64,000 bases of DNA from Desulfofundulus kuznetsovii DSM 6115. GTDB taxonomy: Bacteria > Bacillota > Desulfotomaculia > Desulfotomaculales > Desulfovirgulaceae. Made by a program: the position numbers and the translations under genes. This document shows, piece by piece, positions 3,621 to 48,803 of this stretch. Under the pieces are notes generated by a model that saw nothing but the letters and a program-made list of their open reading frames with translations, had not been told where the DNA came from and ran no database searches. The stretch spans positions 3,417,001 to 3,481,000 of the forward strand of contig NC_015573.1 of assembly GCF_000214705.1 (NCBI RefSeq), read 5' to 3'. Within the stretch, counting starts at the first letter, position 1. Every line of letters begins with the position of its first letter.

Positions 3621-4901
3621 TCATTTTGTGGCGTTTTCTATCAGTTTTTTTATGTCGTTTCTACAATTCTCATCTGGTACGTAAATACAAAAACCAACCT
3701 TGCGTTTACCTGCAATTGCACGAACGGGATCTGAAAGTTTCGTAATATCCTGTGGCTTACCGTTGCTGTCCCGTACTAGAATCGGCGGTTTGCTTTTGTC
3801 GTCTTCATCCTGTGATGTGTAGTAATCATAAGCTACATCGGACGCCCTGTCCCATAAGAGGTAGTACTTTGGATTATAACCATGAGTCTGTACTACTTGT
3901 TTACATTGTTCATGCAGATCGAAAGGGGGATTTTCGGGTAAACTAACTGGTTTAAATAGTTCTCTATTTAAAACGCGTCGTGATAAATCAGACAATATAT
4001 CATCACTACTAAATTGCCAACTTTTAAGTGCTTGCCATATATCAACGTCATCAATAATCAGATAGTCCTCTGGCTGCCATTTCTCCTCAAGAAAGGGTTG
4101 AAGAGTGGGGCTTACACCCCCCTGTGAGAAAAATCCGTGTTTATACAATTCTTTAGCCCTTGCCCAGAGAGTATGTAGAATCTTTTCAATACCACGTGTC
4201 GTTTTATGGAAATAAATTTGCCAATAAGCATAATAACGGGCAAAAACAAATTGCTCCGCAGCCATAAGTCCTTTATATTGGACAACTAGACTATTACGTT
4301 GCTCATTCAACTCCAATACAGACAATAGACGCGGAAGGTCAAAACGGCCATAGGTTGAACCAGTCATTATCGCATCTCGCAAGAGATAATCCATACGGTC
4401 AATATCAATTTGTGACTTTATAATATTTGTCAAGAGCTGCCATTTAGGATCCCCTTTGAGCACCTGACATATTTTTTCCGGAAGGTGAGAATCGATTATC
4501 GTCAAGGAGCAATGTATCTCAGTTGGCCCCAAAATAATTTCCTGGGTCCAATCCTCATGTTTTTTACCAGGAGTCAGGACACCTTCCAGCACATGAGACA
4601 ACGGGCCGTGACCAATATCATGTAATAGAGCGGTGCATCCACCCAGTACCTTTTCCTCATCAGAAAACTTATGACCCTTGTATTCCAGCTCAGCCACCAA
4701 TCTTTCAAACAAATGGAATACGCCCAACGAGTGGCCAAAACGAGTATGTTCAGAACCATGATAAGTAACTGATGAAAGACCCAGGTGGCGGATACGTTTG
4801 AGTCGCTGAAACTCCCGGGTATCAACCAATGGCTTCAGTACCTCGGGAAGGCGAATATACCCGTGTACAGGGTCACGAAAAAGTTTATCCGGAAATTTTA
4901 T
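3621..4901 (-). CDS. HD-domain phosphohydrolase (YwfO/SAMHD1-like), apparent ATA start
   Basis: The metal-binding HD residues are plain: H in GSEHTRFGHS, HD in LLHDIGHGPLSH, and D in QIDIDRMDYLL. Relatives are dNTP triphosphohydrolase-like enzymes. The conserved N-terminus RDPVHGYI is encoded upstream of the first canonical start (TTG 4829). Going back, the frame reaches a stop only at 4914-4916, and the sole start-like codon placed after a good Shine-Dalgarno (GAGGGGGTGG) is ATA at 4901-4899. This gives 426 residues, a normal family length. The ATA overlaps the stop of a 36-codon frame upstream. AT-rich compared with neighbours. Confidence 0.75.
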   Translation of the reverse strand: MKFPDKLFRDPVHGYIRLPEVLKPLVDTREFQRLKRIRHLGLSSVTYHGSEHTRFGHSLGVFHLFERLVAELEYKGHKFSDEEKVLGGCTALLHDIGHGPLSHVLEGVLTPGKKHEDWTQEIILGPTEIHCSLTIIDSHLPEKICQVLKGDPKWQLLTNIIKSQIDIDRMDYLLRDAIMTGSTYGRFDLPRLLSVLELNEQRNSLVVQYKGLMAAEQFVFARYYAYWQIYFHKTTRGIEKILHTLWARAKELYKHGFFSQGGVSPTLQPFLEEKWQPEDYLIIDDVDIWQALKSWQFSSDDILSDLSRRVLNRELFKPVSLPENPPFDLHEQCKQVVQTHGYNPKYYLLWDRASDVAYDYYTSQDEDDKSKPPILVRDSNGKPQDITKLSDPVRAIAGKRKVGFCIYVPDENCRNDIKKLIENATK

Positions 4902-47310: not shown

Positions 47311-48006
47311 CTACCTCCTCTTTTGTTCAAGTTCGTCCAGGGCCCGGGCAAGCCGGCTCGTATCCGGCACAATGATATCCGGCCGGGGCCACTCACCCCA
47401 TAACACCCGGGCCATGGCCGGGTACTCCCGCTCGGGGCGGGAAAGGACCCAGATGGTGGCCAGCCCCAAATTTTTAGCCGGCAGAATATCCTTTTCATAG
47501 GTGTCCCCGATCATGACGGAACGCCGGGGGTCGGCATCCAGGGCCTCCAGGGCGGCCCGGTAGAGCTCTTCCGCGGGCTTTTTCCTGCCCAGGCGAAAAC
47601 TCAAAGCAGCGTAATCCACCAGGGGGGCGATATCCGGGCAGGCACGCAAAAAAGCCTGGTAGTAGGGAACCCAGATGTCCGAAACCAGGCCCACAGCAAA
47701 GCCCAACTCCCGGGCCCGCGTTACCGCCCGGGCCGCGCCCGGTATTTCCACCGCGGCCATCTCCTGGTCGGCCCAGAGGCGCGAGAGGGCCTCCTCATGC
47801 TGCCGGTTCAGGGAGGCCACTTCAGCCAGGGCGGCGCAGACTTCCCGGGGGCCGGCAAACTCCCGGCACATAATTACATCCCCCACCAGCCGGTCCTGCT
47901 CCGGGGGCAGTCCCAGCAGCCGGGCAATTTGTTTGGTTGGAGACACTTCCGGTCCGGTGATCAGGGTGGCTCCGATATCGAAAAGGGCTGCCTTTCGTCT
48001 GGCGAT
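47311..48006 (-). CDS. HAD-superfamily hydrolase, apparent ATC start
   Basis: 231 residues if begun at ATC 48006. HAD motif I (LFDIGATL, nucleophile Asp) is encoded before the first canonical start in frame (GTG 47946). Upstream the frame is closed by the comEB stop seven bases earlier, leaving ATC, nine bases after GGGAG, as the only start-like codon. Motif II is VGLVSDIW, motif III Lys in LGRKKPAEELY, and motif IV MIGDTYEKDILPAKNLG. Likely a small-molecule phosphatase; substrate unknown. Probably cotranscribed with comEB. Confidence 0.75.
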   Translation of the reverse strand: MARRKAALFDIGATLITGPEVSPTKQIARLLGLPPEQDRLVGDVIMCREFAGPREVCAALAEVASLNRQHEEALSRLWADQEMAAVEIPGAARAVTRARELGFAVGLVSDIWVPYYQAFLRACPDIAPLVDYAALSFRLGRKKPAEELYRAALEALDADPRRSVMIGDTYEKDILPAKNLGLATIWVLSRPEREYPAMARVLWGEWPRPDIIVPDTSRLARALDELEQKRR

Positions 48007-48012
48007 GGCCGG

Positions 48013-48450
48013 TCACTCCCACAGGTCCACCTGCACGCCGTGGCGGCGAAGGAACTCTATGCCCTCCTCGGTGCCCCGGTAATCCCGGCGCACCACCACC
48101 CGGGACAGGGCGCAGGAGACAATGAGCTTGGCGCAGGTCAGGCAGATGTCGGCGTTCACGTACATGGTGCCGCCGCCCACGGCCAGGCCGCGTTTGGCAC
48201 AGAGGCAGATGGCGTTCTGCTCGGCGTGAACGCAGGGCTTGTAGTCTTCCCGGCCGGCCAGATCCTTCAGGCACCGGCCGGTATCAATGCAGTGCTCCGC
48301 TCCGCTGACCACCCCGTTGTAGCCGTGGGAAATAATGCGCCGGTCCACCACAATGACGGCCCCCACCTTTTTGCGCAGGCAGGTGGAGCGCCGGGCAATA
48401 ACGTCGACCACTTCCATATAAATTTCATCAAAGGAAGGTCTTTTAACCAG
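48013..48450 (-). CDS. comEB: dCMP deaminase (ComEB-like), apparent CTG start
   Basis: 145 residues from CTG 48450, nine bases after GGAGGTGA. This restores the conserved VKRPSFDEIYMEVVDVIARRS N-terminus, which an ATG at 48417 would cut. The zinc site is HAE in VHAEQNAICLC and CLTC in NADICLTCAKLI. It deaminates dCMP to dUMP for thymidylate synthesis. Stop lies seven bases before the HAD gene. Confidence 0.88.
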   Translation of the reverse strand: MVKRPSFDEIYMEVVDVIARRSTCLRKKVGAVIVVDRRIISHGYNGVVSGAEHCIDTGRCLKDLAGREDYKPCVHAEQNAICLCAKRGLAVGGGTMYVNADICLTCAKLIVSCALSRVVVRRDYRGTEEGIEFLRRHGVQVDLWE

Positions 48451-48534
48451 GGCCGCTCACCTCCGGTCTTCGGGAACGGCGGTGCGCCGGTCTCTTGCTC
48501 TCTTAGCACCCCGACACCAGGCAATAGTTTCGCT

Positions 48535-48803
48535 GTAAATATTCAGTGAACCCGGTTGGATGCGGTGCTGTCCGGAGCGAACGACTTGCAAAGCGCCGGT
48601 AACAGCACCCGGTGAACCCAGCACTCACCGGCAATGATGTTCTTTCTAAGCCTGCTGTAACAAGATAGTAAGTGCAGAGCTTTCCAGTATAACTTTTTCA
48701 GTGAGTGCTGGGCGGCCCGAAGCGAACCGTGGTGCGCATCTTACGCGAAGCACTGGAGTGAGCGAGGACAGCACCGCATCCTTGTTCTTATTACTGACGT
48801 TTA
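48535..48803. repeat. Repeat family A, copy 1 (MITE-like)
   Basis: GGATGCGGTGCTGTCC (48558-48573) and its exact reverse complement (48766-48781) bound a 224-bp core. Inside, CCCAGCACTCAC (48617-48628) and GTGAGTGCTGGG (48701-48712) form a second perfect pair. An outer arm GTAAATATTCAGTGAACCCG starts at 48535; its partner on the right is decayed. The copy at 59719-60026 is nearly identical in both arms and inverted. No coding capacity. It fills the comEB-glyA gap. Confidence 0.75.

Follow-up and report, generated by a model that had tools for sequence, protein, structure and literature searches.

Analysis of a 64-kb stretch of the Desulfofundulus kuznetsovii genome (hereafter the window; the genome comprises 3,601,386 bases in one contig) indicates that two adjacent genes, comEB of the dCMP-deaminase family and a gene of the HAD family, are very probably translated from the non-canonical start codons CUG and AUC, respectively, with the ordinary initiator tRNA placed there by a Shine-Dalgarno (SD) site. 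The first-pass annotation of this DNA had proposed these starts, and the sequence is as it described: each codon lies downstream of an in-frame stop with no canonical codon in between, and each has an SD at nine bases. The proposal itself is very probably right, considering the agreement of six genomes of the genus, the pattern of selection and the alignments with outgroup sequences. The features discussed below are collected in Table 1.

Table 1. Features of the comEB-HAD region and of a third candidate gene, numbered from the first nucleotide of the window
Feature	Position	Strand	Remark
comEB (dCMP-deaminase-family gene)	48013..48450	minus	145 aa counted from the CTG start
Putative CTG start codon of comEB	48448..48450	minus	CTG in 6/6 genus genomes
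First canonical codon of comEB (ATG)	48415..48417	minus	codon 12, probably internal Met
SD of comEB, GGAGGTGA	48457..48464	minus	6 nt before CTG (GGAGG 9 nt before)
Predicted N-terminus of comEB with CTG start			(M)VKRPSFDEIYMEVVDVIAR
HAD-family gene	47311..48006	minus	231 aa counted from the ATC start
Putative ATC start codon of HAD	48004..48006	minus	ATC in 6/6 genus genomes; aligned ATG in G008
First canonical codon of HAD (GTG)	47944..47946	minus	codon 21, probably internal
SD of HAD, GGGAGTGA	48013..48020	minus	6 nt before ATC; overlaps comEB stop codon
Predicted HAD sequence upstream of GTG 47946			includes AALFDIGATLITGPE
Predicted N-terminal peptides of HAD with ATC start			AALFDIGATLITGPEVSPTK; N-terminal (M)AR
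HD-domain gene, possible ATA start at 4901	3621..4901	minus	PF01966 32.8 bits, PF19276 39.0 bits, above cut-off

The comEB frame runs from a TGA (48459-48457) through GCG and GCC to the CTG (48450-48448), and then through V-K-R-P-S-F-D-E-I-Y to the first canonical codon, ATG 48417; on the minus strand its start region reads TGA-GCG-GCC-CTG-GTT-AAA-AGA-CCT-TCC-TTT-GAT-GAA. The HAD frame is delimited by a TGA (48015-48013) that is also the stop codon of comEB, followed by CCG, GCC, the ATC (48006-48004), ARRKAALFDIGATLITGPE and GTG 47946; the start region, read as a continuation of the comEB frame, is TGA-CCG-GCC-ATC-GCC-AGA-CGA-AAG-GCA-GCC-CTT-TTC-GAT-ATC-GGA. In the window, neither gene has an ATG, GTG or TTG between the in-frame stop and the conserved N-terminus, and the arrangement downstream of the stop is GGAGG-9 nt-CTG for comEB and GGGAG-9 nt-ATC for HAD. 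In each frame of the window, the segment that begins after the upstream stop and ends at the first canonical codon holds no near-cognate codon with a properly spaced SD other than the CTG and the ATC, respectively.

The protein encoded from the CTG matches the PF00383 family with 65.4 bits (cut-off 25 bits), and the alignment with the deoxycytidylate deaminase of known structure (PDB 2hvv) begins at its residue 3. Its score against the TIGR02571 ComEB model (108.8 bits) is below the curated cut-off of 219.45, so the name ComEB is a loose one and "dCMP-deaminase family" is the safer designation. The HAD protein matches PF13242 (52.4 bits), PF00702 (51.4 bits) and PF13419 (40.9 bits), each above the respective cut-off. 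In an alignment of 15 HAD homologs, residues F9, D10, G12, T14 and L15 are invariant, and all of them are encoded upstream of the GTG. In the predicted structural model (mean pLDDT 95.4, with an average of 89 for residues 1-10), the first strand comprises residues 6-9, just ahead of D10, and the top matches among PDB structures are HAD proteins aligned over almost the full length. Judging from the alignment and the model, initiation at the GTG would strip the protein of motif I, of the first core strand and of the catalytic Asp that serves as the nucleophile; the GTG is probably an internal codon, since it lies downstream of the invariant residues and of the first strand. HAD phosphatases usually possess a second acidic residue two places after the nucleophile, where the protein studied here has a Gly. 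The motif reads DIGAT, DLGAT or DIGST in this protein and its relatives of the order, as opposed to the usual second Asp of the phosphatases, and the function may be other than that of a phosphatase. We also observed that the HAD gene adjoins the deaminase gene in several genera.

Comparison of the window's genome with five relatives from the same genus (six genomes in total, from different species) reveals that both the CTG of comEB and the ATC of HAD are kept in all of them. Outside the genus, the codon aligned with the CTG is TTG in three genomes that represent other genera of the family (G006, G007 and G008) and GTG in G017, in each case followed by two residues and then R-P, as in the window, while in nine more relatives an ATG is found one codon earlier (G021, G027, G032, G037, G041, G045, G049, G053 and G057). 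The codon aligned with the HAD ATC is ATG in G008; in G006 the HAD gene seems to start with a GTG that overlaps the end of comEB, and a TTG start appears to be used in G017, G027, G037, G045 and G053. The alignments thus assign to both genes canonical, often weak, starts outside the genus. Within the genus, G004 is the exception to the rule that no canonical start precedes the conserved N-terminus, as it has an in-frame GTG that overlaps the comEB SD, 9 nt upstream of the CTG. In G001, comEB is two codons longer and separated from HAD by 62 nt, as compared to the 6 nt between the comEB stop and the HAD ATC in the other five genomes; the HAD frame of G001 contains TAA, TAG and TGA ahead of the gene, yet AGGAGTGA-6 nt-ATC is kept. 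A rearrangement that retains both the SD and the ATC argues for a real initiation site and against readthrough.

CTG and ATC are ordinary codons for Leu and Ile, and other columns are invariant too (in comEB 2 of 9 conserved Leu columns, in HAD 6 of 11 conserved Ile columns), hence the invariance of the codon by itself is weak evidence for initiation. The substitutions in the codons that precede the first canonical starts were summed over the 15 pairs of the six genus genomes. Codons 2-11 of comEB exhibit 44 synonymous and no nonsynonymous differences. Codons 2-20 of HAD exhibit 39 synonymous and 24 nonsynonymous differences (pS 0.164, pN 0.039), a ratio similar to that in the rest of the gene (pS 0.290, pN 0.067). 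The constraint is weak in codons 2-7 (14 synonymous, 24 nonsynonymous), and codons 8-20 have, by subtraction, 25 synonymous and no nonsynonymous differences. The same 15 pairs show both genes to be under purifying selection along their length, and the counts point to purifying selection also between the putative start and the first canonical codon, acting weakly in the case of HAD codons 2-7. Owing to this weak constraint, the exact placement of the HAD start relies on the alignment, the SD and the ATG of G008.

The SD duplex energies were calculated with an assumed anti-SD sequence, as searches of the genome turned up no 16S gene. The comEB site has -15.4 kcal/mol, a value reached or surpassed by 3% of the sampled starts and identical in all six genus genomes (with a spacer one nucleotide shorter in G004), while the sites of the four relatives with TTG or GTG have -11.1 to -14.3; this difference fits a stronger SD compensating for a poorer codon, but is not a proof of it. 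The HAD site has -8.8 kcal/mol, which is average: 66% of the sampled starts, and 7.9% of 6314 internal background positions, are at least as strong. The comEB site is thus among the strongest sampled, and the HAD site is properly spaced but of ordinary strength. The GGAGTGA-6 nt arrangement ahead of the HAD ATC is kept in all six genomes, including G001. Prediction of mRNA folding, which had no control set and was given no weight here, pairs part of the region at both starts.

A gene caller limited to ATG, GTG and TTG reports ATG 48417 and GTG 47946, and it would truncate both genes. We consider it very unlikely that these codons are the real starts and that the similarity upstream of them is incidental: they have no SD above the background (-1.9 kcal/mol for the ATG and -3.2 for the GTG, against a background median of -3.8), the codons ahead of them bear the signature of purifying selection and are conserved in other genera, the solved deaminase aligns from residue 3 of the longer comEB product, and the shorter HAD product would lack motif I and the first strand. 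The conserved N-termini could alternatively be reached from another frame, either by initiation at a GTG that overlaps the SD followed by a +1 frameshift, or by readthrough of UGA that yields a comEB-HAD fusion. Such a GTG is indeed found, one out of frame, inside each SD, HAD continues in the comEB frame beyond the comEB TGA, and the genome encodes a prfB-like gene that apparently requires a +1 shift. The frame of the comEB GTG, however, ends after five codons (GTG AGC GGC CCT GGT TAA) with no slippery site recognised in it, while the HAD residues that precede LFDIG can be aligned with other genera in the frame of HAD, the only one scored. Readthrough is excluded in G001 by the 62 nt and three in-frame stops between the genes, and related genera have a plain start codon at the same place. 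We regard a route through another frame as very improbable, and initiation at CUG and AUC as the preferred reading.

In order to determine how common such starts are, we analyzed 300 kb (~8% of the genome) containing 139 non-overlapping genes with homologs in outgroup stretches, 49 of them within the window. Similarity to the outgroup sequences ahead of the first canonical codon was detected for 23 of the 139. It extended over 8-11 residues in all eight outgroup rows for comEB and over 15-21 residues in all five for HAD, and only these two genes (2/139) appear to be convincing cases in which the conserved N-terminus has no canonical start codon. Among the other candidates, the atpH-like ORF 2230 was flagged in 6 of 7 rows, but its six residues correspond to the SD region before a conserved ATG. 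Sixteen further genes were flagged on one outgroup row, one on two of seven rows, and two on two of three rows; setting aside 20 of the flagged genes was a judgement by eye on the alignments. The prfB-like ORF 1974 was flagged too, but a +1 frameshift is expected in it: this release factor 2 gene lies upstream of the window (about -59238 to -58198 in window coordinates), and a +1 shift at TTT-TGA-C seems to be required for its N-terminus, in line with the usual programmed frameshift. For 10 of the 139 genes an automatic start picker failed to place a canonical start close to the N-terminus; on reading, these proved to be HAD, the prfB-like gene and eight genes with a canonical start beyond the search range; comEB was counted among the 129 genes with assigned starts, as its internal ATG is within range. 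An earlier survey confined to the genus had flagged at least 95 of 203 genes and was replaced by the outgroup comparison, as sequences ahead of the starts differ too little among the genus genomes. The search for start switching among the same number of genes within the genus (203) yielded 16 rows from 12 ORFs, none of them convincing: four of these ORFs lie wholly inside longer genes on the opposite strand, and the remaining eight represent, as judged by eye, upstream non-coding sequence.

These numbers bear on the suggestion that start-codon selection is generally relaxed in this organism, due to an altered IF3, tRNA or ribosome, with three examples in the window. Two neighboring cases within 64 kb, with perhaps a third, would fit this suggestion, as would the frequent use of TTG (31 of the 129 assigned starts), but two cases among the 139 testable genes of the 300-kb sample and no convincing switch among 203 genes do not indicate a genome-wide property, and we give it only a slim chance. 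Inspection of IF3, which had been recommended as a check, revealed nothing unusual by eye in an alignment that includes an E. coli row. The infC gene of this genome starts with ATT in the arrangement AGGAGG-9 nt-ATT, the same layout as in comEB and HAD; across the order we found 17 ATT and one ATC (in G024) among 18 located infC starts (20 loci), so that a non-canonical infC start is the rule, as it is in other bacteria.

The possible third example is the HD-domain gene with an ATA at 4901, for which the sequence is as the first-pass annotation described. A strong G-rich site precedes the ATA (SD duplex -15.3 kcal/mol with the assumed anti-SD), and the motif R-D-P-V-H-G, which in many homologs is located near the N-terminus, lies upstream of the first canonical codon. 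Only one of the five other genus genomes, G005, has a close copy, with an identical start region and a 7-nt insertion downstream, which renders it frameshifted and short. Of 113 genomes of the class, three have a match to the gene at an E-value of 1e-60: its own, G005 with the frameshifted copy, and G018 at 41%. These comparisons suggest that it may be either a third non-canonical start or a decaying gene. Just ahead of it, on the minus strand, is a 36-codon frame (5008-4898) whose stop overlaps the ATA and which is kept in frame in G005 via two compensating indels. Decay is plausible for the HD gene, given the insertion and the shortness of the G005 copy. For comEB and HAD, sequence errors (named in the first-pass annotation as a possible refutation) or decay are exceedingly unlikely, as six genomes of different species agree and both genes are under purifying selection throughout.

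The genomic neighborhood of comEB contains also a repeat element of ~224 bp (48558-48781), located between glyA and comEB and delimited by perfect 16-nt inverted ends. It belongs to a repeat family present throughout the genus, with 87 matches in the window's genome and 23 to 74 in the five relatives from the genus; outside the genus there are none in G009 and G010, and four in G011. Many of the matches are partial. A search against Rfam returned no match in the window. The element looks like a MITE or a similar small mobile repeat.

The evolutionary and mechanistic scenario that we favor is the following. By parsimony, on the branch leading to this genus the deaminase start would have changed to CTG (from the TTG that the family relatives G006, G007 and G008 have) and that of HAD to ATC. 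The ordinary initiator tRNA would initiate at CUG and AUC, positioned by the SD. Judging from other bacteria, the weak codons would lower initiation several-fold, IF3 would discriminate against both of them as it does at infC, and at comEB the very strong GGAGGUGA helix would partly offset the weak codon. Re-initiation by ribosomes that terminate on comEB probably helps the HAD start in five of the six species, because in these the AUC follows the comEB stop by 6 nt.

We found no published report that names these genes in the genus, in a literature search that covered titles and the openings of abstracts, and few subscription papers. The best reading is that comEB and HAD add members to a known kind, i.e. 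weak non-canonical starts placed by an SD. In Staphylococcus aureus, such starts are reported for ccpN (AUA), cvfC1 (AUU), citZ (AUA) and infC (AUA), and the combination of profiling and reporters indicates ~10% of the AUG level at these sites, with ccpN reaching as much as 30% in rich medium (PMC13009471). The likeness extends to the SD, predicted to have extended complementarity in infC, cvfC1 and ccpN, and to the conservation of the start together with its site, among staphylococci for cvfC1 and between S. aureus and B. subtilis for ccpN (PMC13009471). Our cases differ from these in the codons (CUG and AUC), in the products (a deaminase and a HAD protein), in the lineage, in the SD of HAD, which is not unusually strong, and in that initiation is known here from comparison alone. 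In Streptomyces, the start of sigR is GTC in 32 of 34 genomes and GTT in two, and it is repressed by IF3, with no evidence for the GTC in the other genera examined by that paper (PMC5472188). The likeness of sigR to comEB and HAD lies in a non-canonical start that is preserved genus-wide and in the ribosome-binding site, an extensive AGGAGGTG in sigR. There, a regulatory ratio depends on the codon and repression by IF3 was shown (PMC5472188), while comEB and HAD are not known to have a regulatory role. The infC gene itself, an autoregulatory target of IF3 that in Streptomyces has an ATC start (PMC5472188), shares the SD-to-start layout with comEB and HAD, and of the three it alone has a known link to IF3. 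A parallel to the expected truncation of HAD is pncA of Borrelia burgdorferi, which starts with AUU and whose annotated form lacks the catalytic N-terminal Asp; unlike the start of HAD, that of pncA is backed by earlier genetics, biochemistry and a crystal structure (PMC13398362).

We think it unlikely that the paired CUG and AUC starts constitute a kept regulatory device, which places both genes, one of them for deoxycytidylate deamination, under the control of IF3 or of the ribosome state throughout the genus. If true, both genes would rise when the stringency of initiation falls, e.g. in slow growth or upon spore entry. The first position of CUG pairs poorly in E. coli complexes that contain a variant initiator tRNA (PMC11497404). 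A reconstruction in 36 genome triplets reports changes that add up to four to CUG and two to AUU among 68,906 ancestral AUG, GUG and UUG starts (PMC5622118); the sums are ours, and as the reconstruction used called starts they are probably undercounts. Switches to such starts are thus rare, and the window presents two adjacent, genus-wide cases for which the ancestral starts can be inferred. The comEB and HAD genes provide a useful test set for how the strength of the SD offsets a poor start codon, and annotation that places the start at the first canonical codon would cut the conserved N-termini of both proteins, including the catalytic Asp of HAD.
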